Origin: Desulfurococcaceae archaeon
GTDB taxonomy: Archaea > Thermoproteota > Thermoprotei_A > Sulfolobales > Desulfurococcaceae
DNA length: 34,475 bases
Direction of reading: 5' to 3'
NCBI GenBank assembly: GCA_020833225.1
Contig: JAJHQS010000012.1
Coordinates: 1 to 34,475 of the forward strand
Part shown: in pieces, positions 3,117 to 23,959 of the stretch
Position numbering within the stretch: position 1 is the stretch's first letter
How the letters are laid out: every line of letters starts with the position of its first letter
Program-made: the position numbers and the translations under genes
The notes under the pieces: generated by a model
Database searches by the model: none
Told to the model about the DNA's origin: nothing
What the model saw: the letters and a program-made list of their open reading frames with translations, nothing else

Positions 3117-4460
3117 ATGTCTCAGGTTAAAGTAGATTGGGCAGCATTAGCTGAAAAGCTCCATAAGCTCTATGGTGGGAAAATTGAGACGGTTGCTAAG
3201 GTTCCTGTAACTAGGTTTGATGACTTTAATATATGGTATACTCCAGGTGTAGCTGAGCCTTGTAGGAGAATACAGAGAGCTGGGGAAGATGCTTCTTTTG
3301 ATTATACTTGGAGGTGGAATACTGTTGCTGTTATAAGTGATGGTACAAGGGTTTTAGGTCTAGGTAATATAGGGCCGGCTGCTGGTTTACCAGTTATGGA
3401 GGGTAAGTGTTTGTTGTTTAAATATCTTGGCGGCGTTGACTGTTTCCCAATAGTTATACGTGAGAGAGATCCAGAGAAGTTGATATATATAATAAAGGCT
3501 TTAGAGCCGAGTTTTGGTGGAGTAAACTTAGAGGATATAGAGTCTCCTAAGTGTTTCTATATGTTAGAAAAACTAGGAGAAATACTAGATGTACCAGTAT
3601 GGCATGATGACCAGCAGGGAACAGCACTTGTAAGTTTAGCAGGCCTCATAAACGCGTTAAAAGTTGTTGGTAAGAAAATAGATCAAGTCAAGATAGTGTT
3701 GTTTGGAGCTGGTGCAGCAAATATATGCACATATAGATATCTTAAAGTGGCTGGTGCAAAACCAGAGAACATGATTGTGATTGATTCAAAAGGCCCACTT
3801 TACAGGGAACGAGGAGATATTGAAGATATGAAAAAAGAGAACCCGTGGAAATATAGGATTGCTATGGAGACAAATCCAGAGGGTGTAAGAGATGTATCAA
3901 AAGCGTTTGTTGGAGCTGACGTGGTTATCGCGGCTTCTAAGCCGGGTCCAGGAGTTATAAAGAAAGAGTGGATTGCATCAATGAATAAAGATGCTATTGT
4001 ATTTGCTGAGGCAAATCCTATACCTGAAATATGGCCGTGGGAGGCTAAAGAAGCAGGGGCGAGAATTGTTGCTACAGGTAGAGGTGACTTCCCGAATCAG
4101 ATAAATAATAGTTTAGGGTTTCCAGCAGTTTTCAGGGGGGTTTTCACTGTGAGGGCGAGGAAAATGACTGATGAAATGTTCTTGGCGGCAGCTTACGCTA
4201 TAGCGAAGTATGCTGAAGAGACTGGTATTCACGAGGAGAGAATAGTGCCTAGAATGGAGGAGGCTGAGATGTATGTGAAAGAGGCGATGGCTGTCGCAGA
4301 GAAAGCTATAGAGCTAGGTTATGCTAGGAGAAAGCTCTCTAGATCAGAGTTAGAGCTTGAAATAAGAGAGATGATTGAGAGGCCGAAGAAGGAAATGGAG
4401 TTATTTGTTAAGGCAGGTCTTATACAGCTCTACCGAGAGTACAAGGAGTTAAAACCGTAA
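3117..4460 (+). CDS. Malic enzyme (malate dehydrogenase, oxaloacetate-decarboxylating)
   Basis: Interconverts malate with pyruvate and CO2 using NAD(P). Family signatures are present in order: 'YTPGVAEPC' (about residues 41-49), 'WHDDQQGTALVSLAGL' (about 162-177, metal/substrate site), the Rossmann loop 'LFGAGAANICTY' (about 196-207) and 'EANPIPEIWPWEA...GRGDFPNQINNSLGFPAVFRG' in the C-terminal half. The length of 447 aa fits the short prokaryotic class. The ATG has a GAGGTGA ribosome-binding site. Fumarase follows after 15 bases, so malate is likely the shared metabolite. With the fumarate reductase genes downstream, a plausible direction is pyruvate + CO2 -> malate -> fumarate -> succinate; the direction is inference. 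NAD versus NADP preference cannot be read from the sequence. Confidence 0.95.
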   Translation: MSQVKVDWAALAEKLHKLYGGKIETVAKVPVTRFDDFNIWYTPGVAEPCRRIQRAGEDASFDYTWRWNTVAVISDGTRVLGLGNIGPAAGLPVMEGKCLLFKYLGGVDCFPIVIRERDPEKLIYIIKALEPSFGGVNLEDIESPKCFYMLEKLGEILDVPVWHDDQQGTALVSLAGLINALKVVGKKIDQVKIVLFGAGAANICTYRYLKVAGAKPENMIVIDSKGPLYRERGDIEDMKKENPWKYRIAMETNPEGVRDVSKAFVGADVVIAASKPGPGVIKKEWIASMNKDAIVFAEANPIPEIWPWEAKEAGARIVATGRGDFPNQINNSLGFPAVFRGVFTVRARKMTDEMFLAAAYAIAKYAEETGIHEERIVPRMEEAEMYVKEAMAVAEKAIELGYARRKLSRSELELEIREMIERPKKEMELFVKAGLIQLYREYKELKP

Positions 4461-4475
4461 ATTCGGGTATTATAT

Positions 4476-5360
4476 ATGCCATCTCTAGAGGAGTTTAAAG
4501 AGATAATAGCTAAGGCTGTCTCAGAAACCATAGAGCGTGCAGCAATATATATACCACCAGATATTAAACAAGCACTTAAACGTGCATATGAGGAAGAGGT
4601 AAATCCTATGGCTAAGTCACAGTTAGAAGCAATACTTAAAAATATTGAGTTAGCTGAGAAATTTAAGAAGCCAGTATGTCAAGATACTGGTTCTATCATA
4701 TATTATGTCACAGTGGGATATGACTTCCCTGGATTAAGAGTTTTAAGAGAAGCTCTCGTAGAAGCAGTAAGAAGAGCCACAAAACAAGTACCTCTGAGAC
4801 CTAATACTGTTGATCCATTTACTGGTAGAAATCCAGGTGATAATACAGGTAGGTATATGCCATATATACACCTAGAACTAGTTGAAGGAGATGGCTTAGA
4901 GGTTACAGTGGTGCCGAAGGGGGGTGGTTCAGAGGGGGTTTCATACCTAGAACTACCACCTCCAGGTGAGGGTGTTAAAGCAGTTAAAAGAGTAGTTGTA
5001 GATGCTGTTTTAAAAGCAGGCTCACTACCTTGTCCACCAACAATTGTAGGTGTTGGTGTTGGTGGTGGTGCAGACATAGCTATGTATTTAGCTAAAAAAG
5101 CTGCTTGTACTAGGAAAATAGGTACTTTAAACCCTGATCCCGTGTTATATGAGCTTGAAAAAGAGCTATATGAGGCTCTTAATAGCCTTGGTATAGGCCC
5201 TATGGGTCTTGGGGGAAAATATACGGTATTAGCTGTACACGTAGATTATGCACATAGACATCCAGCAGCAATGCCTGTTGCAGTGGCTTTTCAATGCTGG
5301 GCTACTAGGAGAGCTACTGTGAAAATAAATGCTAATGGGAAATATGTTATAGAGCAATAG
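4476..5360 (+). CDS. Class I fumarate hydratase, alpha (N-terminal) subunit
   Basis: Catalytic Fe-S half of the two-subunit, oxygen-sensitive class I fumarase (malate <-> fumarate + water). A cluster cysteine lies in 'KPVCQDTGS' (C68); further candidate cysteines are in 'LPCPPTIVG' and 'AACTRKIG'. Other family signatures are 'PKGGGSEG', 'VGVGVGGGAD' and 'GLGGKYTVLAVHVDYAHRHPAAMPVAV' near the C-terminus. Length 294 aa is typical. It starts 15 bases after malic enzyme and ends just before the beta subunit, so all three are very likely one operon. A fumarase/tartrate dehydratase ambiguity exists in the family; the malic enzyme and fumarate reductase neighbours favour fumarase. Confidence 0.94.
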   Translation: MPSLEEFKEIIAKAVSETIERAAIYIPPDIKQALKRAYEEEVNPMAKSQLEAILKNIELAEKFKKPVCQDTGSIIYYVTVGYDFPGLRVLREALVEAVRRATKQVPLRPNTVDPFTGRNPGDNTGRYMPYIHLELVEGDGLEVTVVPKGGGSEGVSYLELPPPGEGVKAVKRVVVDAVLKAGSLPCPPTIVGVGVGGGADIAMYLAKKAACTRKIGTLNPDPVLYELEKELYEALNSLGIGPMGLGGKYTVLAVHVDYAHRHPAAMPVAVAFQCWATRRATVKINANGKYVIEQ

Positions 5361-5371
5361 GGGTGATATAT

Positions 5372-5974
5372 GTGGCTGAATATAAGCTTAAGACACCTCT
5401 ATCAGAAGCTGATGTTAGGAAATTGAGAGTTGGAGACATAGTATATCTTACTGGGACAATTGTAACTGCTAGAGATGCTGCGCATAGAAGGATGTTAGAT
5501 TACCTCAAAGAGGGTAAACCCATCCCCGTGGATTTGAGAGGAGGGGTTATATATCATTGTGGTCCAGTAGTTCAAAAACTAGGCGACCAGTGGATAGCGC
5601 TGGCGGCAGGACCCACGACAAGTGCTAGAATGGATCTCTATGAGGCAGATGTGATCAAGAATTTTGGGGTGAGAATGGTTATTGGGAAAGGTGGAATGGG
5701 GGCTCGAACGGCTCAAGCATGTAGAGAATATGGTGCTGTCTACGCATATTTCACTGGAGGAGCAGCTGTATTAGCGGCTAATGCAATAAAACGTGTTGTG
5801 AGAGTTGAGTGGCTTGATTTAGGAATACCTGAAGCTTTATGGGTGTTTGAAGTCGAAGACTTTGGCCCATTATTAATAACAATAGATAGTGAAGGCCGTA
5901 ATTTAACTGAAGAGGTTGTAGAGCAAGCTAAGAAGAAACGAGAAGAGGTACTTAAAAAACTTGGAGTAACTTAG
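5372..5974 (+). CDS. Class I fumarate hydratase, beta (C-terminal) subunit
   Basis: Partner of the preceding alpha subunit. The N-terminus 'EYKLKTPLSEADVRKLRVGDIVYLTGT' and 'RDAAHRRML' are characteristic, as are 'YHCGPVV', 'AAGPTTSARMD' and 'IGKGGMG' in the middle (substrate binding swivel domain). About 200 aa, the normal length. An upstream in-frame GTG at 5363 is possible. I prefer GTG 5372 because GGGGTGAT (5360-5367) is then at ribosome-binding distance. Transcribed with malic enzyme and the alpha subunit. Confidence 0.94.
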   Translation: MAEYKLKTPLSEADVRKLRVGDIVYLTGTIVTARDAAHRRMLDYLKEGKPIPVDLRGGVIYHCGPVVQKLGDQWIALAAGPTTSARMDLYEADVIKNFGVRMVIGKGGMGARTAQACREYGAVYAYFTGGAAVLAANAIKRVVRVEWLDLGIPEALWVFEVEDFGPLLITIDSEGRNLTEEVVEQAKKKREEVLKKLGVT

Positions 5975-6036: not shown

Positions 6037-7995
6037 ATGAGTTTGAGTAGTGAGGAGCCGCGAGTAGGTGTTTTTGTCTGCCATTGTGGCCTTAACATAG
6101 CTGGCGTAGTAGATGTTAAAAAAGTTGTAGAAGAGGCTAAAAGACTTCCTCACGTAGTTCACGCTGAAGATTATATTTATATGTGCTCTGCACCCGGGCA
6201 AGAACTTATTAAAAAAGCGATTTTAGAGAAGAAACTCAACGCTGTAGTGGTTGCAGCATGTACTCCCACAATGCATTATGAGACATTTGCACGAGCTATA
6301 GAAGCAGTTGGCTTAAATCGTTACAGGCTCGAGATGGCTGTGATAAGGGAGTTTTCTAGCTGGGTGCATGCAGATAAGAAGAAGGCAACAGAAAAAGCAA
6401 TAAAACTAGTAAAAGCAGCTGTGGTGAAGGTTGCTGATAATAGCCCGCTAGAGCCTGTTAAGAGTAGAACTGTGAGAAAAGTCCTGGTAATTGGTGGTGG
6501 AATAGCAGGGATAACAGTTGCCTTAGACATTGCAAATGCCGGAATACCCGTAATACTAGTTGAAAAGACACCGACAATTGGAGGTAAAATGGCTATGCTT
6601 AGTGAAACTTTTCCAACACTAGATTGTGCTCAATGTATACTTACACCAAAAATGGCTGAAGTTGCTAGGCACCCGTTAATAAAAATCTATACTAACTCTG
6701 AAGTAGTAGATGTTAGTGGATTTGTTGGAAACTTCAAGGTGAAAATACTTCAGCGCGCTAGATATGTTAAAATAGGTGATTGTAGGCTCTGCGGCTTCTG
6801 CGAGAGGGTTTGCCCAGTAAAAGTTCCAAGCGAGTTTAATAGAGGTCTCTCTGATAGGAAGGCTATTTACATACCATTCCCACAGGCAATACCTCCTGCC
6901 TATGTAATTGACAAGGCTAATTGTAGACACTGGGTAGATGGGTGTGATAAGTGTTTAAGAGTATGTCCAACTAAGGCCATAGACTTTAATGATGAAGATA
7001 AATTAGTAGAAGAAGAAGTTGGAGTTATAATTGTTGCAACAGGCTATGATTTATATCCTGCTGAGAGGCTTAAGGAATATGGTTATGGCTTATATAGAGA
7101 TGTAATAGATTCACTGCAATTTGAGAGGATACTCTCAGCAGGTGGTCCTACAAAAGGCCTTATACTAAGACCTAGTGATAGAAAACCAGTGAAGAGAGTT
7201 GTGTTTATACAGTGTGTTGGTTCACGAGACATTAATCACCTCGAATATTGTTCAAAAATATGTTGTATGTACACGGCGAAACACGCATTAATATTTAAAG
7301 AGCGAGTACCAGGCGGAGAGGCATATGTGTTTTACATAGATATAAGGGCTGCTGGGAAGGGTTATGAGGAGTTCATTAAGAGAGTACAAGAGGAGTTTCA
7401 AGTAAACTACATACGTGGCAGAGTTAACAGGGTTTACCGAGATCCCAAAACAGGCGACATGGTTGTTGTTGGATTTGATACTCTTACAGGCCAGTTATTA
7501 ACGGTCAAGGCAGACCTCGTTGTATTAGCCACGGGCTTAGTGCCACAGTTACCTTATGAATTAGCATCTAAACTGAAAATACCTTTTGATAAATATGGAT
7601 TTGTTCAAGAAGCACATCCAAAGTTAAGACCTGTTGAAACAGTGACTAGTGGTGTATTTGTATGTGGTGTTGCACACGGCCCCAAAGATATTGCTGAAAC
7701 TGTTGCACAAGCCTCTGCCGCGGCGGCTAAGGCTATGGAATTATTGTATTCAGAGTATATTGTTAAAGAGCCATTAGTAGCTGTGGTTGATAGAGATTTA
7801 TGTAGTGGTTGTAGAGTATGTGTAGGTATTTGTCCATATGGTGCATTAGAGCTAGTAGAGGGGAAAGCGAAAGTTAATGAGTTGTTATGTGAGGGTTGTG
7901 GGGCTTGTGTAGTTGCATGTCCAAGTCGTGCAATAGAGTTGAGGAATTACTCAACTAAGCAATTATTAGAAATGGTTAAGGCTGTGGTGAAGTGA
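6037..7995 (+). CDS. hdrA: Heterodisulfide reductase subunit A (HdrA), flavin electron-bifurcating subunit
   Basis: Full-length HdrA (652 aa) with the methanogen-type domain order. An N-terminal cysteine region contains 'FVCHCGLN' (C15, C17) and 'CTPTMHYE'. An FAD Rossmann loop 'VIGGGIAGITVALDIANAG' starts near residue 150. 'TLDCAQCILTPKMAEV' (near 195) is the CxxC close to the flavin. An inserted ferredoxin domain carries 'CRLCGFCERVCP' and 'CDKCLRVCPTKAI'. The C-terminal 2[4Fe-4S] ferredoxin carries 'CSGCRVCVGICP' and 'CEGCGACVVACP'. In known complexes HdrA takes H2 electrons through MvhD and splits them between HdrBC and ferredoxin. Its stop overlaps mvhD by GTGA. A TATA-like TTTAAATATT near 5979 probably drives the eight-gene operon. 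Bifurcation here is inferred from family and domains. Confidence 0.96.
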   Translation: MSLSSEEPRVGVFVCHCGLNIAGVVDVKKVVEEAKRLPHVVHAEDYIYMCSAPGQELIKKAILEKKLNAVVVAACTPTMHYETFARAIEAVGLNRYRLEMAVIREFSSWVHADKKKATEKAIKLVKAAVVKVADNSPLEPVKSRTVRKVLVIGGGIAGITVALDIANAGIPVILVEKTPTIGGKMAMLSETFPTLDCAQCILTPKMAEVARHPLIKIYTNSEVVDVSGFVGNFKVKILQRARYVKIGDCRLCGFCERVCPVKVPSEFNRGLSDRKAIYIPFPQAIPPAYVIDKANCRHWVDGCDKCLRVCPTKAIDFNDEDKLVEEEVGVIIVATGYDLYPAERLKEYGYGLYRDVIDSLQFERILSAGGPTKGLILRPSDRKPVKRVVFIQCVGSRDINHLEYCSKICCMYTAKHALIFKERVPGGEAYVFYIDIRAAGKGYEEFIKRVQEEFQVNYIRGRVNRVYRDPKTGDMVVVGFDTLTGQLLTVKADLVVLATGLVPQLPYELASKLKIPFDKYGFVQEAHPKLRPVETVTSGVFVCGVAHGPKDIAETVAQASAAAAKAMELLYSEYIVKEPLVAVVDRDLCSGCRVCVGICPYGALELVEGKAKVNELLCEGCGACVVACPSRAIELRNYSTKQLLEMVKAVVK

Positions 7996-8426
7996 ACTTG
8001 GATTCCTGGGAGCCTAAAATAGTGGCATTTCTATGTAAGTGGTGTTCAGGTGCAGCAGCCGAGCTCGCCGGTGTTAGTAGGTTATTATACTCGCCAAACG
8101 TGATTCCAATAATAGTCCCCTGCTCTGGACGCGTTGACCCTGATTTAATAGTAGAGGCTTTCATGAACGGGGCAGATGGAGTCATAGTGGCGGGTTGTCA
8201 CACACCCTCAGATTGTCACTATATTGCGGGGAACTTTAAGGCCTTTAAGAGGGTTTACATGTTGAAGAAGCTACTTAGTGACTTTGGCATAGAGCCTGAG
8301 AGGTTGAAATTAGAGTGGGTGAGTGCTGTTGAATCACAAAAACTCAAAACACTATTTGACGAGTTCACATTTACTATTAGGAAGCTAGGTCCACTTAGAG
8401 TAAAAATACGTGGTGGTAGTGTGTGA
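7992..8426 (+). CDS. mvhD: MvhD-like [2Fe-2S] protein linking hydrogenase to HdrA
   Basis: Small iron-sulfur protein (144 aa) that hands electrons from the MvhAG hydrogenase to HdrA. Five conserved cysteines are seen: 'LCKWCSGAAAE' (C15, C18), 'VPCSGRVDP' (C44) and 'AGCHTPSDCHY' (C69, C75). This is the hallmark pattern of the family, often called the methyl-viologen-reducing hydrogenase delta subunit. It begins with a GTG overlapping the hdrA stop (GTGA) and ends with a GTGA overlap into mvhG, so translation is coupled on both sides. It is a separate protein here, not fused to HdrA as in some organisms. Confidence 0.95.
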   Translation: MNLDSWEPKIVAFLCKWCSGAAAELAGVSRLLYSPNVIPIIVPCSGRVDPDLIVEAFMNGADGVIVAGCHTPSDCHYIAGNFKAFKRVYMLKKLLSDFGIEPERLKLEWVSAVESQKLKTLFDEFTFTIRKLGPLRVKIRGGSV

Positions 8427-9400
8427 ATAAACCTAATATAGTTATAGTTCACGGAGCTATTTGTGGAGGGTGTGATGTAGCTTTAGCGAATAGTGAAGAA
8501 GCTATTTCAAAGATCTTGGAGAACATTGATCTAGCGTATTGGAGTGTAGCAGTTGACGCTAGACTCTCCGACTTAAAATCACTTGGTAAAATAGATGTTG
8601 CGGTATTTATGGGTGGTGTAAGGACTAGTGAAGATGAGGAATTAGCGAAGTGGTTGAGAGAGAAATCTAAGATACTAGTAGCTTTTGGTAGTTGTTCAGC
8701 ATATGGTGGAATACCTGGATTAGCTGCATTAACTTCTCCTATTGAATTAATTAACTTAGTGAAGTCAACGATTACTACTAGTTCTCAATATAAGAGTATT
8801 ATTGAATTACCTAAATTACCAGAGCTAAGTACTTATAGGGCACTACCCCACGTAGTCAATGTAGACATAGTAGTTCCCGGCTGTCCTCCCCCTATTAAAG
8901 TCGTTAATGAATTTGTAAATGTGCTCTTAAAATACATTGCTGGCGAGGAACCAATAGGGCCATTAGTAATTGCTGGTTCTAAAGCACAATGTGAGACTTG
9001 TCCTAGAAAACCTAAAGATCTCTCTAAACTACAAATACCGAGTATAAAGAGGATATATGAGGCTAAGATCGAGGAAAATAGGTGTTTCTTAGAGCAGGGA
9101 ATACTATGTTTAGGCCCTGTTACTCGAGAAGGCTGTGAACACAGTTGTATCAATGTGAATATGCCTTGCACGGGTTGTTTTGGACCACTACCAGGATTTG
9201 AAGATGTAGGTCTTAGATACATAGCTGGGATATTAGCACTAGTCGCTGTTGAAAGAGAGAAAGAGTTAATGGAGCAGGGTTTAGCTAAAATTCTCGATAA
9301 GCTCGTAGATCGTCTTGGAGTTCTCTATAGGTATACTCTGCCTAGGTCTCGCCTATATATGCTTAAATTAAGCTTAGAGGGTAGTGAATATGCAAGGTAA
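8423..9400 (+). CDS. mvhG: F420-non-reducing [NiFe]-hydrogenase small subunit (MvhG-like)
   Basis: Electron-transfer subunit of a group 3 cytoplasmic [NiFe] hydrogenase. Cluster ligands are visible: 'AICGGCDVALANSEE' (C14, C17; proximal cluster), 'FGSCSAYGGIPGL' (C91), 'VPGCPPPIKVV', then 'CETCPRKPKD', 'CLGPVTREGCEHSC' and 'MPCTGCFGP' for the other clusters. There is no twin-arginine signal or membrane anchor, consistent with a soluble enzyme. The length of 325 aa is slightly above usual. GTG start overlapping mvhD by four bases; it overlaps mvhA at its 3' end. Confidence 0.95.
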   Translation: MNKPNIVIVHGAICGGCDVALANSEEAISKILENIDLAYWSVAVDARLSDLKSLGKIDVAVFMGGVRTSEDEELAKWLREKSKILVAFGSCSAYGGIPGLAALTSPIELINLVKSTITTSSQYKSIIELPKLPELSTYRALPHVVNVDIVVPGCPPPIKVVNEFVNVLLKYIAGEEPIGPLVIAGSKAQCETCPRKPKDLSKLQIPSIKRIYEAKIEENRCFLEQGILCLGPVTREGCEHSCINVNMPCTGCFGPLPGFEDVGLRYIAGILALVAVEREKELMEQGLAKILDKLVDRLGVLYRYTLPRSRLYMLKLSLEGSEYAR

Positions 9401-10844
9401 AAATCTAGTAGTAGATCCGGTTACGAGAATTGAGGGTGAAGCAAGGGTTATAATAACCTTAGATGATGCGGGTAGAGTAAACAACGTATATTACCAAGTA
9501 TTAGAGCTAAGAGGTTTTGAGGCATTTTGCCGTGGTAGACTTGTAGAGGAGATGCCTCGAATATCTCAGACTATATGTGGAGTTTGTAGTATACCTCATC
9601 ATATGGCTTCTGCTAAAGCTGTAGATATGTTATTTGGTAGAAAACCCACTGAAACAGCTATTAAAGTGAGAGAACTGGTACATTATATCTACATGATAGA
9701 TGATCATCTATTACACTTAGCTGTAATGGCGTTAGCCGATCTACTCGCGGAGAGAAGTAGTGAGTTACGTGGACTTGTAGACGTAGTAAGGAGATATCCA
9801 GAGGTTATTAAGAAGTTGATTACAGCCAGGTCTATAACGACGAGTATCATTAAAAAGATCTGTGGGAAAATAATACATGTGCCGATAGCTATACCTGGAG
9901 GTGTTTCCAGGAAGCTGAGCAAAGAAGACTTAGAGTTTATTGAAAAAAGTTTAAGAGAGCTGAGAGGACATTTACAGTATACTCTAGATCTCTTTAAAAA
10001 TACTCTCTCAAAATCGCGAAGACTACAAGAACTTGCGAGGAGAGGGGATTATGAGTTAAAGACTTATTACATGGGCTTAGTTAGTGAAGATGGATCTCTT
10101 AGTTTCTATGATGGGGTATTAAGAGTAGTAGATTATAAGGGTAGTGAGGTAGCTACTTTTAAACCTGAGGAGTATACGAAATATATTGCAGAACATTATG
10201 AGGAGTGGAGTTATTCAAAATTCCCATATTTAACTATCATAGGGTGGCAGGGTTTAGAGGAGGGAGGTGTTGTTAGAGTTGGACCATTGGCTAGGTTAAA
10301 TGTGTGTAGTAAAGTGCCGGCTGAGTGGGCTTTAAATGAGTATAAAGAGATGCTCGAGTTCTTTGGCGGTGAGAAAGTTGTAAATAATACTCTTGCTTAT
10401 CACTGGGCACGACTAATTGAGAATATCTATGCACTTGAGGTAGTAGAGAAAATGATGATCGAACACAGGGACTTATTGAGTACTGGTGAAGTAGTGAACT
10501 TAGAGGGGACACCTCGATATGAGGGTATCGGAGTAGTAGAAGCTGCACGTGGGGTTTTAATTCACCATTACAAATCTGATTCGAATTTCCTCGTGACAGA
10601 TGTCAATATAATAACTCCCACAGCTATAAATAATGCTGCTATAAATACTCAGCTTAAGAAGATAGCGTTGAAATCGTGGACTAGACTACTGCTAAATGAG
10701 GACTTAACTAATTTAATCAGCGAGTTAGAAGTGGCTATAAGAGCTTTTGACCCTTGTAACTCCTGTGCAACTCACATCGCAGGATCTAGGTTGATCAGGG
10801 TGTTTATCTACGACTCTCATGGTAATTTATTAAAGGTGATTTAG
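9390..10844 (+). CDS. mvhA: F420-non-reducing [NiFe]-hydrogenase large subunit (MvhA-like)
   Basis: Catalytic subunit that splits or forms H2. The N-terminal 'VDPVTRIEGEARV' is the classic hydrogenase start. The nickel ligands are intact: L1 'SQTICGVCSIPHH' (C63, C66) and L2 'FDPCNSCATH' (C456, C459, H462). Twenty-two residues follow that histidine, so an endopeptidase of the HycI/HyaD type is expected to cut after H462; no such protease or Hyp maturation gene lies in this window. Start: ATG at 9390, eight bases after GAGGG; an in-frame GTG at 9384 is too close to it. Overlaps mvhG by a few bases. Group assignment (3c, Mvh/Vhu type) follows from the HdrA and MvhD partners. Confidence 0.95.
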   Translation: MQGKNLVVDPVTRIEGEARVIITLDDAGRVNNVYYQVLELRGFEAFCRGRLVEEMPRISQTICGVCSIPHHMASAKAVDMLFGRKPTETAIKVRELVHYIYMIDDHLLHLAVMALADLLAERSSELRGLVDVVRRYPEVIKKLITARSITTSIIKKICGKIIHVPIAIPGGVSRKLSKEDLEFIEKSLRELRGHLQYTLDLFKNTLSKSRRLQELARRGDYELKTYYMGLVSEDGSLSFYDGVLRVVDYKGSEVATFKPEEYTKYIAEHYEEWSYSKFPYLTIIGWQGLEEGGVVRVGPLARLNVCSKVPAEWALNEYKEMLEFFGGEKVVNNTLAYHWARLIENIYALEVVEKMMIEHRDLLSTGEVVNLEGTPRYEGIGVVEAARGVLIHHYKSDSNFLVTDVNIITPTAINNAAINTQLKKIALKSWTRLLLNEDLTNLISELEVAIRAFDPCNSCATHIAGSRLIRVFIYDSHGNLLKVI

Positions 10845-10856
10845 TGGGGTGGTGAA

Positions 10857-11228
10857 GTGTCAGAAGTATTAAATCGCGTAGTTGAATATAGTGGTAAAAA
10901 CCCGTATGCTTGTTATCAATGTGGAACGTGCTCAGCTGTTTGCCCCATGGTGAGGTTTATGGATATTCCTCCTCATAGAGCTATAAGGCTTTTACAAATA
11001 GGTGCAGGAGCACTTGTGTTATCTAGTAATACTATATGGATTTGCGTTAGCTGTATGAGATGTGTTGATCGCTGTCCGAGAGATGTAGCACCAGGAGTAG
11101 TGTTTGAAGCATTGAGGCTTATAACGCTGAGACAGGGGATTGATAAGTTAAAGTATGAGGAGATCCCTAACATCGAAGAGGCACCTACTCTTGCGATAGT
11201 AAGTGCTTCGAGGAAGCTTACAGGGTGA
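10857..11228 (+). CDS. hdrC: Heterodisulfide reductase subunit C (HdrC), short form
   Basis: Ferredoxin-like subunit carrying two [4Fe-4S] clusters that wire HdrA to HdrB. Both motifs are complete: 'CYQCGTCSAVCP' (C19, C22, C25, C29) and 'CVSCMRCVDRCP' (C63, C66, C69, C73). It is only 123 aa, whereas methanogen HdrC is usually around 185 aa, so the C-terminal helical part is reduced. GTG start preceded by GGGGTGGTGA. The stop overlaps the hdrB start (GTGA). Confidence 0.93.
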   Translation: MSEVLNRVVEYSGKNPYACYQCGTCSAVCPMVRFMDIPPHRAIRLLQIGAGALVLSSNTIWICVSCMRCVDRCPRDVAPGVVFEALRLITLRQGIDKLKYEEIPNIEEAPTLAIVSASRKLTG

Positions 11229-12031
11229 TTAATGTGAAAATGCTCTATTATCCTGGTTGCACAGTTAAGAGAAATGCTTTAGAGTATGAGAAGAAGACAT
11301 TAGAAATACTGAGTAAAATAGGTATTGAAGTATATGAATTAGATAATTGGTATTGTTGTGGAGCATTTTATAGTCTAGCAAAAGACGACTTAATGAAACA
11401 CATTAGTGGTTTGAGAACTCTCATAAAGGCCCAGGTACAAGCCAGAAAACATGGGACTAATAAACTTCTAACATTGTGTCCAATGTGTTATAATGTGCTT
11501 AAGAGAGTAAATCACATGCTCAGAGAAAACCCAGAAAATCTTGATACATTAGCGTTGTTTATGGATGAAGAAGAAAAGTATACTATTGGAATAGAAGTGT
11601 TACATTTACTTGAAGTGTTAAGAGATAATATTGATAAACTTAAGAGATTAGTGGTAACAGAGGTTAAAGATGTCGTGGTAGCACCATACTATGGTTGTAC
11701 AGTGCTCAGGCCGAGGGAAATCGCATTTGATAATGCCGAAAACCCCGAGGTTATGGATAACATACTGAGAGCTCTTAAGATAGAGGTTATAGAATTTCCG
11801 TTTAAAACTGAGTGTTGTGGAGCATATCAATCAGTTTTCAATAGGAAGATCGTGTTTGAGAAATCTGGGGAAATATTAGAAGAAGCTGCAGTAAGAGGTG
11901 CTAATATTATTGCAGTGATCTGTCCACTGTGTAAGTACAATTTAGAAACAACACTATTATCTCTCGGCAAGAAGTTAAGAATTGAAATTGTTTATTTAAC
12001 TGATTTATTGTCGCGGGCGACGGGCCCATGA
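11225..12031 (+). CDS. hdrB: Heterodisulfide reductase subunit B (HdrB), two intact CCG domains
   Basis: In methanogens HdrB reduces the CoM-S-S-CoB heterodisulfide at two noncubane [4Fe-4S] clusters. Both cysteine-rich CCG domains are complete: C12 / C44-C45 / C85-xx-C88, and C158 / C197-C198 / C233-xx-C236. All ligands for two noncubane clusters are therefore kept. The length of 268 aa is close to usual (about 290). It starts with a GTG overlapping hdrC. Since no methanogenesis gene is in view, its substrate may not be the CoM/CoB disulfide. It could act on another disulfide or serve as the electron entry to the adjacent fumarate reductase, in place of the CCG half of a fused TfrB. That last point is inference. 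Confidence 0.93.
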   Translation: MINVKMLYYPGCTVKRNALEYEKKTLEILSKIGIEVYELDNWYCCGAFYSLAKDDLMKHISGLRTLIKAQVQARKHGTNKLLTLCPMCYNVLKRVNHMLRENPENLDTLALFMDEEEKYTIGIEVLHLLEVLRDNIDKLKRLVVTEVKDVVVAPYYGCTVLRPREIAFDNAENPEVMDNILRALKIEVIEFPFKTECCGAYQSVFNRKIVFEKSGEILEEAAVRGANIIAVICPLCKYNLETTLLSLGKKLRIEIVYLTDLLSRATGP

Positions 12032-12092
12032 TCACTACTTTTACTAATTATTATTTTATATCAATCTATAAGTTAGATATGGCTAGGACTAG

Positions 12093-12824
12093 GTGGCATC
12101 TGTGAGTGTAGCCTTGGTTACAGTATCTCGTAGAGAGATACTTCAGCCTAAAATGGTTAAGATATATGTGATGGGTCGAGAATACCTTGTTCCAGAGGGT
12201 CTCACGATTCACAAGGCTCTAGAATACGCGGGATTTAGATTAATAAGAGGTGTTGGATGTAGAGGAGGGTTCTGTGGGGCTTGTGCAACATTGTATAGGA
12301 AGCCTGGAGAATACAAGTTGAGGATTGCATTAGCATGTCAAAATGTAGTTGAAGACGGGATGTACCTCGTAGTATTACCATATACACCTATTCCGAGAGT
12401 GAAATATAAGTTAGAATCACTTAAGCCAGATGTAGGTTTAGTTCTAAAATTATATCCTGAGATAGCTAGATGTGTTGCCTGTAATACCTGTACAAAGGCG
12501 TGTCCACAGGGTTTACAGGTCATGGACGCTATCCAGGCGATTAAAAGAGGGGATTTAGCAAAAGCTGCAGATTTAACATTTGATTGTATAGCGTGTGGAA
12601 TATGCTCAATGAGGTGTCCTGCGGAGATAAGACATGCAAATATATTCCACTTGGTTAGGAGGATTTATGGGAAATACATGTCACCAAAGCCAAGGCACTT
12701 AGAAGATAGGATCAAGGAGATAGAGCAAGGTAAATACAGAGAGGAATTAGAAAAATTAAAGCAAGCATCTGTGGACGAGTTGAAAAAACTATATGCTTCA
12801 AGGGTGATTGAGCCAGAGGAGTAG
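12093..12824 (+). CDS. tfrB: Fumarate reductase iron-sulfur subunit, TfrB-like but without CCG domain
   Basis: Electron-transfer subunit feeding the flavoprotein encoded next. An N-terminal plant-type [2Fe-2S] domain has C56, C61, C64 and C82 ('GCRGGFCGAC...ACQ'). The second domain has two full four-cysteine motifs, 'CVACNTCTKACP' (C127-C137) and 'CIACGICSMRCP' (C165-C175). A charged helical tail follows. Thiol:fumarate reductase TfrB of methanogens is about twice as long because it also carries an HdrB/D-like CCG half; here that half is missing and a separate HdrB sits immediately upstream. The gene starts 61 bases after hdrB, with a TATA-like TTTTATAT near 12052, so an internal promoter is possible. 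GTG 12093 is the first start; ATG 12153 would begin exactly at the ferredoxin fold. Confidence 0.88.
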   Translation: MASVSVALVTVSRREILQPKMVKIYVMGREYLVPEGLTIHKALEYAGFRLIRGVGCRGGFCGACATLYRKPGEYKLRIALACQNVVEDGMYLVVLPYTPIPRVKYKLESLKPDVGLVLKLYPEIARCVACNTCTKACPQGLQVMDAIQAIKRGDLAKAADLTFDCIACGICSMRCPAEIRHANIFHLVRRIYGKYMSPKPRHLEDRIKEIEQGKYREELEKLKQASVDELKKLYASRVIEPEE

Positions 12825-12834
12825 AGGTGTGAGT

Positions 12835-14496
12835 ATGTGTGGATATCCATCTGAGATCAAGAAGTTAATAAAATACGTGGAGGAGACACGGGAGGAGAGG
12901 TTAAAGAAGCCATATAGGAGATTATCGCTAGAAGAACGCGAGAAACTATTAAAAGAGTGGCATCCTGACTATAAGCCGGGGACTAAGAGGCCTCTGAGAG
13001 TAGGTGTTTGTAAGGGTACAGTAGTTTATAATGAAGTAGCAGATTTGTTAGAGGCATGGCCGCTCATAGACCCCGATCAAATAGACCTCAGTAAAGTAGA
13101 CTATGATGTTGACGTATTAGTCATTGGTAGTGGTGGGGCTGGTTTAGCTGCGGCACTGTGGGCTATATATAGTGGAGTTTCTCCAGATGCTGTACTCTTA
13201 GTTACAAAGTTGAGACTAGGAGACTCTAACACGGTTAAAGCCCAAGGCGGTATACAAGCAGCAGATAGACCAGAAGATAGTCCTATATTACATTTCATAG
13301 ACACTGTTGGGGGAGGTTTATTTGCAAATAAGAGAGATCTTGTAGAGGCACTTGTAACAGATATGCCGTTCATAATGAAGTGGCTTGAAGATCTCGGCGC
13401 TATGTTTGATAAAAATCCTGACGGCAGCTATGTAGAGGTAAGTGGAGGTGGAGCGTGTAGGAGGAGATTACATTGCGCTAGAGACTACACAGGCCTTGAA
13501 ATACTGAGAGTTCTGAGAGAGGAGTTTTTAAATCATGACGTACCATATTTAGAGTTTACACCAGCAATAGAGTTACTCACAGACCCAGAGGATGGAGGAG
13601 TTTCTGGTGCAGTACTCTATAATCTTGAAACTGGAGAGTATTATGTGGCTAGTGCTAAAGCGGTTATAATAGCGACTGGAGGAGCTGGTAGACTTCACAT
13701 TGCAGGGTTTCCGACGAGTAATCACTATGGAGCTACTATGGATGGTGTAGTAATGGGTTATAGAGTAGGGGCTAATATAGTTCACCTCGACACATTCCAA
13801 TTCCACCCAACTGGCGTAGCGTTTCCAGAGGCAATTAGAGGTGAATTAATAACGGAGAAGTGTAGGAGTCTTGGAGCACAACTAGTAAATGTTCACGGCG
13901 AGCAATTTATACATCAACTAGAAACTAGAGATGTAGTATCAAGTGCAATAATAAAGGAATGTGCTGAGGGTAGAGGTATTATTACTCCAACTGGGGCTAT
14001 GGGAGTATGGCTTGATATGCCAATGATAGACATGTTAAGAGGCCCCGGCACAATAAAGAAGGCTCTGCCTGCTATGTATAGGCAATTCATAAGGCATGGA
14101 ATAGATATAACACAAGAACCCGTGTTGACATATCCAACACTACACTACCAAAATGGTGGAATAGAGATAGATGTATTTTCCAGAGTATTGAGGCCTAATG
14201 GAGAGCCTATACCAAGGCTATTAGCAGCAGGCGAAGTGGGTGGAGGAGTTCATGGTAGAAACAGGTTAATGGGCAACTCGCTAGCAGGCATATTAGTGTT
14301 TGGTAGAAGGGCCGGGATAACAGCGGCGAAAACAGTAAAAGAGACGTCGACAAGACCTAAACTCTCACTAAAACACCTAGAAAAATATATTGAGGAGTTG
14401 AAATCTATAGGCGTACCGAGAGAGAGGCGTTCACCAATTCTACTACCAGATTATAGAGGAGAAAAAGTCTTACTAAGATCTCTCAGAATATTTTAA
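12835..14496 (+). CDS. tfrA: Soluble fumarate reductase flavoprotein subunit (TfrA-like)
   Basis: FAD protein of the succinate dehydrogenase/fumarate reductase family. The Rossmann motif 'DVLVIGSGGAGLAAALWA' is at about residues 93-110. Then come 'TVKAQGGIQAA' (133-143), 'FQFHPTG', a catalytic-arginine segment 'LETRDVVSSAI', 'HYQNGGIEID' and 'GRNRLMGNSLAGILVFGRRAG'. The residue equivalent to the FAD-linking histidine of quinone-type FrdA/SdhA is an asparagine (N132), so FAD should be noncovalent. About 90 residues precede the Rossmann fold and the usual C-terminal helical domain is short. No membrane anchor genes follow. ATG 12835 is preceded by GAGGTG; a TTG at 12808 is open but overlaps tfrB. 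Predicted to reduce fumarate to succinate in the cytoplasm. Confidence 0.9.
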   Translation: MCGYPSEIKKLIKYVEETREERLKKPYRRLSLEEREKLLKEWHPDYKPGTKRPLRVGVCKGTVVYNEVADLLEAWPLIDPDQIDLSKVDYDVDVLVIGSGGAGLAAALWAIYSGVSPDAVLLVTKLRLGDSNTVKAQGGIQAADRPEDSPILHFIDTVGGGLFANKRDLVEALVTDMPFIMKWLEDLGAMFDKNPDGSYVEVSGGGACRRRLHCARDYTGLEILRVLREEFLNHDVPYLEFTPAIELLTDPEDGGVSGAVLYNLETGEYYVASAKAVIIATGGAGRLHIAGFPTSNHYGATMDGVVMGYRVGANIVHLDTFQFHPTGVAFPEAIRGELITEKCRSLGAQLVNVHGEQFIHQLETRDVVSSAIIKECAEGRGIITPTGAMGVWLDMPMIDMLRGPGTIKKALPAMYRQFIRHGIDITQEPVLTYPTLHYQNGGIEIDVFSRVLRPNGEPIPRLLAAGEVGGGVHGRNRLMGNSLAGILVFGRRAGITAAKTVKETSTRPKLSLKHLEKYIEELKSIGVPRERRSPILLPDYRGEKVLLRSLRIF

Positions 14497-14549: not shown

Positions 14550-15098
14550 TTGATTAACGCCTCTTCAGAGCTCATTAATGTAGCGAGAACTAGTAAACAC
14601 GTAAAAGTGTTTACGTTAAGTGGAATACGGGAATATCCGGTACTACGCAGTATTAAGTGTGAAAAATCCTATGTTATCTTATCTTTACACCACTACGAAG
14701 GTGTTCCATGTTATCCTCTAATAGTTGAATGTGGAGAGAATATATTTAAATATACTATACTAGAAAACCTCGACAAGATCATTATTACTCCTAGGTACTT
14801 TGTAGAGAGTATTGGAGAGGAAGCTATTATAGTTAAAAGAGTAGATGGGGTGTTATTTAAGATCATAGATCCCACGCTCTCATATATATTAACACACATC
14901 AATGAAAAACACATTAGCTTCTACGAATTACTCGAAGACTTAATAGCAGTAGAATCCATGAAAACTAATACCGAGTATACTGAGGATCTCGTTGAAACCT
15001 TAACAATAATGCTCGGTATAGCACTAGGCTTCTTAGCTTACGAAGCCGAGCTTATAGAATTAACCCTATCTTCACCAGAAAATAAAACTTCAATATAA
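14550..15098 (+). CDS. Hypothetical protein downstream of tfrA
   Basis: 182 aa, not recognised. It starts with TTG at 14550 behind an AGGGGC ribosome-binding sequence and lies 53 bases after tfrA on the same strand, so it may be read through from that operon, or from a weak AT-rich promoter around 14500. The first two thirds look like a mixed alpha/beta domain. Residues about 145-170 form a fairly hydrophobic helix ('TIMLGIALGFLAYEAEL') with acidic residues at both ends, more like a buried helix than a membrane anchor. No cysteine motif is present. Position suggests an accessory role to the fumarate reductase, but nothing in the protein itself shows this. Confidence 0.7.
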   Translation: MINASSELINVARTSKHVKVFTLSGIREYPVLRSIKCEKSYVILSLHHYEGVPCYPLIVECGENIFKYTILENLDKIIITPRYFVESIGEEAIIVKRVDGVLFKIIDPTLSYILTHINEKHISFYELLEDLIAVESMKTNTEYTEDLVETLTIMLGIALGFLAYEAELIELTLSSPENKTSI

Positions 15099-15935: not shown

Positions 15936-17885
15936 GTGAGTTCTATTATTGCTGTTGATGTTGGTGGTACATTTACAGACTTTGTAGCTTTAGATGAGCG
16001 AGGAGAAATTAAGACTTTAAAATTACTTTCAACGCCGAGAAGCCCGGAGAAAGCTGTTATTGAAGGTCTAGAGAAATTTAGTTTTAGAGAAGTGGTACAT
16101 GCTTCTACAATTGGGACAAATGCTCTACTAGGTCAAATAGGTCTTGAAAGGCCGAAAGTAGCTCTTTTTACAACTAGGGGTTTTAGGGATATTATTGAAA
16201 TTGGGAGGCAAAATAGACCTAGACTCTATGACTTATATTTCGAGAAACCAAGGCCACTAGTACCTAGGGAGTTGAGATTTGAAATAGATGAGAGAACACT
16301 ACACACTGGTGAAGTAGTTAAGAGACCTGACTTAGAAGAGGTGAGAAAACTCGCTGAAAAGGCTGTTTCAATGGGGGTTATTAGTGTTGCTGTTTCATTT
16401 TTACACTCCTATGCTAATCCTGAGAACGAGGTTATTGTCGGTGAGGTCTTAAAAGAGAAGTTTAAATATGTGACATTGTCTCATGAAATCGCATGGGAGC
16501 CTAGAGAATACGAGAGAACTAGTACAGCTGTTATAAACGCTGTTTTAATGCCTATTGTGAGTAATTATCTTGAAGAAATCGGCAAATATGTAGAGAATCG
16601 TGGTGCTAGTATCTACACAATGACGAGTTCAGGTGGGCTTGTAACAGTAGAAGAGGCTGTTAAGAGACCTGTCCAACTCGTGGAATCCGGCCCTGCTGGT
16701 GGTGTCGTAGCAGTAGCAGAATTAGCTAGACTACTAGGTCTTAGGAGAGTTATTTCTCTAGATATGGGTGGTACTACAGCTAAGGCAGCCACGGTAGTAG
16801 ATTATGAGGTACAATTGACAACGGAGTACGAGGTTGGTGGAGAAGTGCATTATGGGAGAGTTGTGAAGGGTTCGGGTTATCCTGTTAGATATCCATTTGT
16901 AGACCTCTCAGAGGTCTCAGCTGGTGGTGGTACAATTATTTGGCGAGATGAAGCCGGAGCTCTTAGAGTAGGACCTCTCAGCGCTGGCGCTGATCCTGGC
17001 CCTGTATGTTATAATAGGGGTGGTGTTCAGCCAACTATTACAGATGCTAACTTAGTTCTTGGCAGGATACCGACGAGTCTCCTAGGAGGCACTATGTTAC
17101 TTGACGAGAGAAAGGCTTTAGAAGCGTTGAGGAAACTTGGAGATCCCTACGATGTCGCCAACATAGCTATTGATATGATAAATCTCGTAATGGCGAGGGG
17201 TATTAGGCTAGTAACTATTGAGCGAGGTCTTGACCCCAGAGACTTTGTACTAATAGCTTTTGGCGGCGCTGGGCCTCAACACGCAGTTCTACTAGCTGAA
17301 GAACTAGGAATTGAGAGGGTAATTATTCCACCACTACCAGGGGTTTTTACAGCACTCGGCATGTTAATGGCTGATTTCAAGTTTGAGGCTAGGAGAGCTT
17401 ATCCAAGAGACGTGGAAGAGGCGTTTAATGAACTTGAAAATAAACTTGCAAATCTTAAACCCGACTATTATATTAGATATGCTGATGTGAGGTATAAGGG
17501 TCAAGGATGGGAATTAATAATTCCGGTAGGTAAGCCGGCGACAATAGAATCTATTAAGAGTATTTTCGAGGAGAGACATATAGCTACATATGGCTTTAAA
17601 CTTCCAAGAGAAGTAGAAATAGTAGTTGTGAGAGTATTTGCTGTTAAAAAGAGAATTAAGCCTATTTTAAGAGACCCCCTGCTAGAAGGCTCTCCTGAAG
17701 TCTCAGAAAAAGATGTCTTTTTTGACGGCTGGATAAAAGTGCCTGTGTTCAAGAGGGATCAATTGCCACTCGGTTACAGGATTAATGGTCCAGCTATAAT
17801 AATTGAAGATTATTCTACCACGATTATTCCTCCACGATGGCAAGCAGTAGTTGGAAAATTCGGTGTTTTAGAGGTGAGAAAGTGA
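15936..17885 (+). CDS. hyuA: Hydantoinase/5-oxoprolinase family protein, HyuA subunit
   Basis: ATP-using subunit of the HyuA/HyuB family (N-methylhydantoinase, 5-oxoprolinase, distant to acetone carboxylase). The ASKHA-fold phosphate loops are clear: '[14 protein letters not shown]' (about 6-19) and '[13 protein letters not shown]' near 270. '[11 protein letters not shown]' and 'FGGAGPQHA' are further family marks. The length of 649 aa is usual. GTG start at 15936; the stop forms a GTGA overlap with hyuB. Likely reaction: ATP-dependent opening of a cyclic amide such as 5-oxoproline or a hydantoin. The true substrate cannot be told from sequence. Confidence 0.92.
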
Positions 17886-19426
17886 GTTGGGAGATTGTCT
17901 ATAAGGCTACTGAGTACATTGCTGAGGAGATTGGTGTAGCTTTAAAGAAATCTGCTTTTTCACCAAATATTAGAGAGAGAATGGATTTTAGTGTAGCAGT
18001 CGTAGACTCAGAGGGTAGAATTATAGCTCAAGCTGAACATATACCAGTACATTTAGGCTCTTTCTATATTGGTGTAAAGAACCTCATAAAATACCTCTCA
18101 GAGGAGAATATAGACCTTGCGAGAGGCGATGTAGTTATTACTAATGACCCCTATATAGCTGGAACACACCTTAACGATGTAATGGCTCTTTCACCAGTAT
18201 ACTATGAGAATAGGCTTGTAGCCTATATTACTACTAAAGCTCACTACGTAGATGTTGGTGGACCTGCACCAGCATCATTAAATCCACATTCAAAAACACT
18301 CTACGATGAGGGCCTAATAATACCACCAGTGAAACTCGTAAAGAGAGGTGAATTAGACAAAGAGATCTTAGGTATTATACTCTCAAATTTCAAAACACAA
18401 GATTATGCTTTAGGAGATATTAATGCTCAAATAGCGGCTCAACGTATTGGTGAAGTACGAGTAAGAGAGCTCTTTAACAAGTATCATAGTGTTCTCGAAG
18501 CATGGGATAAGGCTATTGAACATGGACGTAGACTAGTAGAGCTCGAATATGAGAAGTGGCCGCAGGGGGTGTATGAGGCAGAAGACTACCTTGACTGGAG
18601 AGATGAGATCTATAGGATTAGAGTTAAACTAGAGATCTCAGGTAACATTATACTAGTGGATTTTGAGGGTACTAGTAGGCAAGTTGAAGAACCCGTAAAC
18701 GCTGTTCTAGGAGTAACTTTTGCAGCTACATCTTTTAGTATAAGGTGTATGTTGAATAAAGAAGTACCAACTAATCACGGCTTCTACTCTACTATAATTG
18801 TAAAAGCCCCTTTAGGCACATTAGTTAACCCTTTAAAACCAGCGCCTGTAGGTGCAGGTAACCTTGAAACTTCAAATAGAATTGTAGATGTAGTTTTTCT
18901 AGCTCTCTCAAAAGCTCTGCCTGGTAGAGTACCTGCGGCAGCATCTGGCACTATGATGAACTTGATGATTGGAGGTGTTTACAATAATAGATATTGGTCT
19001 TATTACGAAACTATTGGTGGAGGCACAGGCGCAAGACCCTTTAAGAATGGTGTTTCAGGAGTCCACGTGAATATGACAAATACTCTCAACACGCCTATTG
19101 AAATAGCTGAGAGAGAGTTTCCAATATTATTCACAGCTTATAGGATTAGAGAGGGGAGTGGTGGTCGAGGGAGATTTAGAGGCGGTGATGGTATTGTGAG
19201 ATCAATGAAGGTATTGGCGCCAGCAACACTCTCTATTATAGCATCAAGGTTTAAGACAAGGCCATGGGGACTTGAAGGCGGAGAACCCGGCTTACCCGCA
19301 AGAGTTTATGTTAAGAGAGTTAAGGGCTATATTGAGGAGATATGTTCTCAAACCATAGATTTAAAACCCGGTGATGAGGTTGTTGTTGAGACGCCTGGTG
19401 GAGGCGGCTATGGCGCTCTAAAATAA
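17882..19426 (+). CDS. hyuB: Hydantoinase/5-oxoprolinase family protein, HyuB subunit
   Basis: Partner of HyuA, about 514 aa. Family segments are '[11 protein letters not shown]', 'HIPVHLGSF', '[19 protein letters not shown]', '[16 protein letters not shown]'-type sequence and the glycine-rich end 'GGGGYG'. I place the start at GTG 17882 because GAGGTGA (17871-17877) precedes it and it gives the four-base overlap typical of this genome. The ATG at 17837 is open but would overlap hyuA by 49 bases and add residues not expected for the family. No membrane segments; expected to be a cytoplasmic complex with HyuA. Confidence 0.92.
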
Positions 19427-23096: not shown

Positions 23097-23861
23097 TCAC
23101 CTCTTAAACACCCATTCAAAACTCTTATATTTACTTACAAGTTCACTTGCTACCCTAAGCTCTCTCTCAGAGAGCTCGTCATAGTAAATCTCAGCGCTAA
23201 GAGTATTTGAAAAACCCTCTACAAGATACTCTACAAGGACGTTGACGTCGACTTCGCCAATGATATCTCTAAGCGTTATAACTCTATCTCTAATACTCTT
23301 TACACCCTTACTCTCAAGTTTCTCTCGAGGCGCTATGAGGGCTTTCTCTAGAATATTGAGATCTGTAGCATACATTAATGTGCCATGTTGTAGTAAAAAT
23401 CCAGCTCTACGTGTTTGTGCACTACCAGAAATCTTCTTACCATGAACTACAATATCATTTATGGGTATAAAATCTGCAGAAACACCAAGCTTCCTGAGAG
23501 CATAGACAAGGCTATTACATATAACCCTATAGCTCTCTAAGACATCTGTTAAAACACCCCTGATAGGTAAGACTATACTATATGTTAACTCGCCACTAGT
23601 ATCGTGGTAAACTGAACCACCACCCGTGATCCTCCTAGTATATTGTATACCGCTCTCATCTAGAAACTCTAAGTTAACAGCCTCCCTAATCTTCTGAAAA
23701 TAACCTATTGTAACAGCACTAGGCTTAAACCTATATATTCTCAAAGTATTATCAATTTCACCGCGAGATCTCAGCGTTAATAATGCCTCATCAATAGCCA
23801 TTTGCCAATAAACATCACGCCCCTCAAGATCTAGTATAACTCTCAACTTCAAAAACCACAC
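23097..23861 (-). CDS. lplA: Lipoate/octanoate-protein ligase, catalytic subunit (LplA-like)
   Basis: Catalytic subunit of a bipartite ligase that attaches octanoate or lipoate to a carrier lysine via an adenylate. Key segments are 'MAIDEALL' (about 21-28), 'RRITGGGSVYHDTSGELTYS' (76-95, lipoyl-AMP binding) and 'NDIVVHGKKISGSAQTRR' (about 139-156, containing the catalytic lysine). The length of 254 aa lacks the C-terminal domain, which is supplied by the adjacent lplB. It is divergent from the two radical SAM genes. In the archaeal route this ligase is thought to load octanoate that LipS1/LipS2 then convert to lipoyl. Confidence 0.93.
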   Translation of the reverse strand: MWFLKLRVILDLEGRDVYWQMAIDEALLTLRSRGEIDNTLRIYRFKPSAVTIGYFQKIREAVNLEFLDESGIQYTRRITGGGSVYHDTSGELTYSIVLPIRGVLTDVLESYRVICNSLVYALRKLGVSADFIPINDIVVHGKKISGSAQTRRAGFLLQHGTLMYATDLNILEKALIAPREKLESKGVKSIRDRVITLRDIIGEVDVNVLVEYLVEGFSNTLSAEIYYDELSERELRVASELVSKYKSFEWVFKR

Positions 23862-23893
23862 CGAGACTGTAGAAATATAGATGACTATAACAG

Positions 23894-23913
23894 TTATTTA
23901 ACTTTATTTAACT
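23894..23913. promoter_or_regulatory. Tandem 10-mer in the divergent lipoate promoter
   Basis: TTATTTAACT occurs twice back to back between lplA (start 23861) and the first radical SAM gene (start 23960). Read on the minus strand it gives two TTAAATAA TATA-like boxes 33-52 bases ahead of lplA. It may be simply a duplicated TATA or a shared operator for both directions. Confidence 0.45.
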
Positions 23914-23959
23914 CTAAGACATATTATGAGCTATGTGAAATATATGTAGGCTGAGCATA

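Follow-up and report, generated by a model that had tools for sequence, protein, structure and literature searches.

In methanogens, the hydrogenase-heterodisulfide reductase HdrABC-MvhADG (5ODC) has the heterodisulfide CoM-S-S-CoB, of coenzymes M and B (CoM and CoB), as its acceptor and no TfrAB attached. Where, then, would the electrons go in an archaeon whose hdr and mvh genes run directly into those of a TfrAB-like fumarate reductase? This question is raised by contig JAJHQS010000012.1 of a Desulfurococcaceae archaeon (assembly GCA_020833225.1), of which we analysed positions 1 to 34,475 (34,475 nucleotides, hereafter the window). An earlier reading of the bare letters (the sequence-only reading) had placed eight plus-strand genes, hdrA-mvhD-mvhG-mvhA-hdrC-hdrB-tfrB-tfrA, at 6037-14496, and our coordinates, strand and families all agree with it. 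We propose, at a probability of roughly 0.6, that these genes encode HdrABC-MvhADG-TfrAB, an H2-driven bifurcating fumarate reductase that also reduces ferredoxin. That the high-potential branch would lead to fumarate, and not to a heterodisulfide, had already been suggested; the suggestion gains backing here from the conserved order HdrC-HdrB-TfrB-TfrA, a TfrB free of a thiol site, a complete fumarate site and adjacent genes for fumarase and malic enzyme.

The Hdr-Mvh module and its ligands

HdrA (6037..7995; plus strand, as are all genes of the run) is the flavin adenine dinucleotide (FAD)- and Fe-S-binding subunit and the putative site of bifurcation. Its best NCBIfam profile is of the HdrA2 type (NF040770, 823 bits), and it aligned end to end, FAD domain included, with 5odc_A (E 2.7e-210). 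MvhD (7992..8426; Pfam FlpD, 156.9 bits; ligands intact) would provide the 2Fe-2S link to HdrA from the donor arm, namely the hydrogenase small subunit MvhG (8423..9400; Oxidored_q6; VhuG, 168 bits) and the [NiFe] large subunit MvhA (9384..10844; NiFeSe_Hases; VhuA, 303 bits; solved relatives 7t2r_D and 5odc_F), whose Ni-Fe motifs, CGVC and DPCNSC, are intact. HdrC (10857..11228; TIGR03290) is of the two-[4Fe-4S] type, while HdrB (11225..12031) has two CCG domains, a family profile that matched the solved HdrB 8rvu_b (E 1.5e-48) and 10 Cys (5+5), as the two expected noncubane clusters need.

In a cysteine table spanning 16 genomes, in which counts hold wherever a given gene was found, the window has 27 Cys ligands in HdrA (26 shared by every relative compared), 5 in MvhD, 12 in MvhG, 8 in HdrC and 12 in TfrB; those of HdrA, HdrC, HdrB, TfrB and MvhG were retained in every member having the gene. 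The window thus holds all six subunits of the methanogen complex with their cofactor ligands, and the earlier claim that every ligand is kept was borne out for the Fe-S, Ni-Fe and fumarate-site residues alike (cysteine table, motifs and alignments). MvhD is fused to HdrA in six related loci (L057, L058, L060, L061, L063 and L064), the sole reliable fusion in the cluster.

A profile search of the genome (1.47 Mb, 99.55% complete) found HdrB to be its only CCG protein. The nearest NCBIfam model to HdrB is SdhE (113.9 bits, below the cut-off of 500), followed by the HdrB model TIGR03288 at 104 bits. SdhE belongs to the 8-methylmenaquinol:fumarate reductase SdhABE; that, however, is a quinol enzyme, whereas the window has HdrC, HdrA and Mvh, and no MqnA/D was found. 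The host had been taken for a non-methanogen; in line with this, the genome yielded no McrA or ComA and ComE only below the cut-off, CoB genes not having been searched for.

TfrA has a complete fumarate site and TfrB lacks a thiol site

TfrA (12808..14496) is an SdhA/FrdA-like fumarate reductase flavoprotein and the genome's only SdhA/NadB relative. Its AlphaFold2 model (predicted local distance difference test score, pLDDT, 90.5) matched the fold of E. coli FrdA (1kf6_A) best, and alignment with E. coli SdhA (1nek) located the fumarate site at H333, E350, R374, H446, E476 and R486, all six invariant in 96/96 TfrA sequences. In the same 96 sequences, an Asn (Asn141) takes the place of the His to which FAD is covalently bound in SdhA/FrdA. 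Relatives with non-covalent FAD reduce fumarate and are unable to oxidise succinate, and soluble fumarate reductases also do without covalent FAD (PMC9557727); together with Asn141, this favours, by analogy, fumarate reduction as the direction in which TfrA would work. TfrA carries an N-terminal extension of ~95 amino acids and lacks most of the SdhA C-terminal region. As both features are common to all relatives, a truncated or frameshifted tfrA was ruled out; so was an L-aspartate oxidase, given that TfrA is nearly always paired with TfrB and is nearest to FrdA in fold.

TfrB (12093..12824; SdhB-like; Pfam Fer2/Fer4) is predicted to carry one [2Fe-2S] and two [4Fe-4S] clusters: its 12 Cys are invariant, and with four Cys at the second SdhB cluster site, [4Fe-4S] is expected there rather than [3Fe-4S]. 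The label "TfrB-like" in the sequence-only reading suits this electron-transfer subunit, but the CCG half of methanogen TfrB is missing. TfrAB alone therefore lacks a thiol site and could not draw electrons from thiols as the methanogen thiol:fumarate reductase does; the latter is likewise a soluble SdhAB-type enzyme, yet its TfrB includes fused CCG domains and receives its electrons from CoM-SH and CoB-SH, whereas in the window the CCG protein is the separate HdrB. On the methanogen TfrB profile, HdrB matched the C-terminal half (262-487) and the TfrB-like protein the N-terminal part (19-83). Methanogen TfrB would thus amount to a natural fusion of the two, which supports a contact between HdrB and TfrB in the window. 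Among the relatives, no HdrB-TfrB or TfrB-TfrA fusion was found, and an apparent 817-amino-acid TfrB frame (G282) proved to be read-through across a TAG stop.

Both proteins fell short of the methanogen Tfr models (TfrB 27.9 of 385 bits; TfrA 314 of 718 bits, PRK06263). The best NCBIfam match of TfrB was cdhA, through a 4Fe-4S stretch only, and its AlphaFold2 model was weak (pLDDT 76; predicted template modelling score 0.51), so that its fold matches were not used.

The gene run begins with malic enzyme and fumarase

The operon-like run starts at 3117 and not, as first described, at 6037. Overlooked were genes for a malic enzyme, which interconverts pyruvate and malate (3117..4460; Pfam malic and Malic_M), and for the alpha (4476..5360; TIGR00722, 336 bits) and beta (5363..5974; TIGR00723, 226.6 bits) subunits of a class I fumarase, directly upstream of hdrA with successive gaps of 15, 2 and 62 nt. 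The malic enzyme gene adjoins the cluster in relatives L049-L056, L063 and L064, and the fumarase neighbours are conserved in relatives as well. As annotated, the run spells out the predicted route pyruvate -> malate -> fumarate -> succinate. The starts, said to be mostly overlapping, overlap at 4 of the 7 junctions (-4, -4, -17 and -4 nt); an overlap of tfrB and tfrA hinges on a TTG start at 12808, while relatives begin at the position of ATG 12835, the likely start. With no membrane anchor gene in the run (from the window's list of open reading frames, ORFs) and no MqnA/D family member in the genome (other quinone pathways were not searched for), the locus does not qualify as a quinone-linked fumarate or succinate reductase.

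Just 3' of tfrA lies an ORF of 182 amino acids with no Pfam match (14550-15098), and a hydantoinase/oxoprolinase A and B pair is found at 15936-19426.

The Hdr-Tfr order is conserved while the donor arm varies

When 398 genomes of the phylum were compared, 16 proved to carry close relatives of TfrA, a sharply separate set sharing 52-79% identity where full length; the next-nearest SdhA proteins share only 35-44%, over the Rossmann part. TfrB was found in 15 of these 16 genomes and was absent from the remaining 382 (Fisher p ~3e-26, uncorrected for kinship). HdrC-HdrB-TfrB-TfrA is contiguous in nearly all Thermoproteota genomes with a close TfrA whose contig reaches, and is adjoined there by HdrA-MvhD, MvhGA being optional. 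Since the same order recurs in many independent genomes, the eight-gene order is not due to chance.

A scan of named genomes for TfrA relatives yielded at least 594 stretches. Among the best 80 are stretches from Thermoplasmata, Heimdallarchaeota, Bathyarchaeota, WOR-3, Chloroflexi, Acetothermia, Bacillota, Cloacimonadota and Spirochaetes, besides other groups; where the contig permits, TfrB almost always lies upstream of TfrA. Among 95 loci whose neighbourhoods were counted, some of them on short contigs, Hdr genes lie near TfrA in 67, from many phyla, and 2-oxoacid:ferredoxin oxidoreductase genes in 24, which fits ferredoxin as a product. Where the latter stand beside the Hdr-Tfr cluster (L062, L079, L087 and others), their arrangement suggests that the ferredoxin made may feed a reductive tricarboxylic acid cycle step.

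The donor arms include Mvh, Flx-like NAD-binding and ferredoxin proteins (near 25 of the 95 loci; the window has the Mvh arm instead), and an Ehe hydrogenase with GcvH, and some loci have none nearby. A quick tree built from TfrA called for 18 changes of arm type. By their sequences, TfrA and TfrB thus appear to be a single flavoprotein family whose donor arms can be exchanged. The recurrence of the same TfrBA beside Flx arms counts in favour of the mechanism proposed below. The Desulfurococcales set forms a clade on this tree (Shimodaira-Hasegawa-like approximate likelihood ratio test, SH-aLRT, 100), sister to the Culexarchaeia set (SH-aLRT 96). In seven Chloroflexi loci, mostly of Dehalococcoidia (L090, L097, L106, L109, L110, L130 and L135), TfrBA falls in one clade with no Hdr genes near; an acyl-CoA dehydrogenase-like gene is adjacent, and fumarase too where the contig allows.

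The hydrogenase arm is blinded in four relatives

In four relatives from the window's family (G015, G008, G029 and G021; loci L051 (=L069), L052, L053 and L054 (=L081)), MvhA has lost the Ni-Fe cysteines, its motifs reading CGTQ, CGSD or CSSD with no DPCxxC, and MvhD lacks one to three Cys. The ligands of MvhG (12 Cys), HdrA, HdrC, HdrB and TfrB are all intact in the same four, and the blinded mvhA and mvhD still stand between intact HdrA and HdrC. On the TfrA tree these relatives fall among those with live Mvh arms, the support for their grouping being weak (57), and a single loss event would fit this pattern. Their donor may be ferredoxin or another partner. The assignment of MvhADG as electron donor thus stands for the window, by its intact ligands, but not family-wide, where arms are swapped and four hydrogenase subunits are dead.

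A proposed electron path

In the mechanism that we favour, the eight gene products would assemble into a single soluble complex or else work as a closely coupled set. MvhA would split H2, the presumed donor in vivo, and electrons would pass through MvhG and MvhD to the FAD of HdrA. We infer bifurcation at this FAD from the features of HdrA and from the ferredoxin-using neighbours: one branch would lead through the C-terminal ferredoxin domain of HdrA to ferredoxin (Fd), the other through HdrC, HdrB and the Fe-S clusters of TfrB to the non-covalent FAD of TfrA, where fumarate would be reduced to succinate. The net reaction would be 2 H2 + fumarate + Fd(ox) -> succinate + Fd(red) + 2 H+, for which textbook potentials give about -69 to -85 kJ/mol under standard conditions. 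The run's own malic enzyme and fumarase would supply fumarate from pyruvate, and reduced ferredoxin could feed 2-oxoacid:ferredoxin oxidoreductases, which the genome encodes, or an Mbh-type ion-pumping hydrogenase. Judging by ORFs and their neighbours, the genome apparently holds an Mbh/Mrp-like group 4, a CooS-linked group 4 and a group 3b hydrogenase. Read by eye, the CooS-linked locus (G000:C28, L163) has a CooS-like CO dehydrogenase and a CooF-like ferredoxin beside the group 4 hydrogenase, making CO-dependent H2 production possible there.

Weighing the alternatives

Several points weigh against this mechanism. Before CGVC, the window's MvhA has a Thr where most live Mvh arms elsewhere have an Arg. 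The Dehalococcoidia loci have TfrBA without Hdr nearby, so TfrAB can pair with another partner. In the four blinded relatives, the lost MvhA and MvhD ligands mean that Mvh-derived H2 electrons are no donor, which weakens the notion that H2 is always the source, although not the notion that Hdr feeds Tfr. With a reaction this exergonic, bifurcation could occur but need not, and our literature search found no biochemical evidence for any member of the Hdr-linked fumarate reductases. The energy gap and the blinded relatives bear in particular on an alternative in which the same complex works without bifurcation, as a plain H2:fumarate or ferredoxin:fumarate reductase, with HdrA merely relaying electrons and ferredoxin acting as donor where it is used: the gap between H2 and fumarate suffices without coupling, and ferredoxin is an obvious remaining donor where HdrA-HdrC-HdrB-TfrB-TfrA is intact behind a dead MvhA and MvhD. 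We nonetheless consider this unlikely for the window, where HdrA retains every Fe-S element of a bifurcating HdrA and aligns over the FAD domain, the H2 arm is intact, and related clusters often adjoin 2-oxoacid:ferredoxin oxidoreductase genes.

HdrB keeps both noncubane clusters, the site of disulfide chemistry in methanogen HdrB, and HdrABC-MvhADG might accordingly reduce another disulfide, either that of a small thiol or that of a lipoyl group carried by a GcvH/LbpA-like protein, with the resulting dithiol driving TfrAB through HdrB. A GcvH-like gene flanks the Culexarchaeia cluster, where it was proposed as a disulfide carrier (PMC9723716), and the window itself holds, at 23097-25764, a lipoate protein ligase gene and two adjacent radical S-adenosylmethionine genes that may encode a lipoate synthase pair of the LipS1/LipS2 type. 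Yet no CoM genes were found in the genome, TfrB itself lacks a thiol site, and the labelled scan showed no GcvH-like gene beside Desulfurococcales clusters; the genome's single GcvH adjoins glycine cleavage P genes away from the Hdr-Tfr cluster, for which reason a lipoyl carrier at the cluster was rejected. Such a disulfide route is, in our view, improbable. Far less credible is a TfrAB that merely shares an operon with HdrABC-MvhADG and has NAD(P)H, ferredoxin or quinol as its donor: the Dehalococcoidia TfrBA, with fumarase and no Hdr nearby, would fit it, but the order of the module is retained across many phyla, TfrB holds only electron-transfer clusters and no NAD site, and neither an anchor subunit in the run nor MqnA/D was found. 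We give hardly any weight to the reverse direction, in which succinate (or CO) would be oxidised and protons reduced, as was suggested for the Ehe/SdhA/CdhA cluster of Culexarchaeia (PMC9723716). The FAD is predicted to be non-covalent, confurcation of succinate and reduced ferredoxin to 2 H2 would cost about +69 to +85 kJ/mol, and the Culexarchaeia CdhA is most probably a TfrB of the window's kind, to judge from the cdhA match described above.

Relation to known systems and implications

The idea of a bifurcating Hdr-linked fumarate reductase is already known in an NADH-dependent form: a 2019 preprint (Koendjbiharie and van Kranenburg), as cited in PMC7282089, put forward a Flx-Hdr fumarate reductase for Pseudoclostridium thermosuccinogenes, and the genes of its operon respond together (PMC7282089). 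Tubeworm symbionts and Thioflavicoccus have tfrAB interspersed with flxABCD-hdrABC and korABCD, and direct electron shuttling was suggested (PMC6315080); the flx-hdr-tfr-kor cluster of the Riftia symbiont is expressed (PMC11636981). These systems resemble the window in uniting HdrABC and a soluble two-subunit fumarate reductase in one cluster (with fumarase in P. thermosuccinogenes) and in the bifurcation proposed for them, and the window likewise has HdrABC, MvhD, such a reductase and fumarase in one run. They differ in being bacterial, with an NADH-type Flx donor in place of the [NiFe] Mvh, and all are known as proposals. The P. thermosuccinogenes-type layout is also seen in Dorea sp. 5-2 (L139), whose TfrA shares 53% identity. 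The H2-driven archaeal variant is new: our literature search, whose coverage left out most subscription journals, found no paper on an Mvh-driven version.

The Ehe cluster of Culexarchaeia comprises SdhA, CdhA, HdrA2B2C2 and GcvH, and succinate or CO oxidation, or disulfide metabolism, was suggested for it (PMC9723716). Its SdhA belongs to the clade sister to that of the window's TfrA, with TfrB, HdrB and HdrC alongside, but a group 4 Ehe hydrogenase and GcvH replace MvhGA. Our comparison suggests that the Culexarchaeia SdhA and CdhA (L057, L058, L060 and L061) are TfrA and TfrB of the window's family, and that the SdhA/CdhA genes of the Ehe cluster were misread.

More tentatively, we envisage that Desulfurococcales carry out a complete quinone-free H2/fumarate respiration, in which HdrABC-MvhADG-TfrAB would pass bifurcated H2 electrons to fumarate and ferredoxin through direct contact between the proteins, with an Mbh-type complex spending the ferredoxin for ion pumping, and that in one sub-lineage the arm was blinded and the chain re-wired to another donor. 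The comparison unites separate proposals made for Clostridia, tubeworm symbionts and Culexarchaeia. If the mechanism holds, fumarate would be a direct acceptor of bifurcation without CoM/CoB and without quinones, which would explain how quinone-lacking anaerobes gain low-potential electrons from fumarate reduction.

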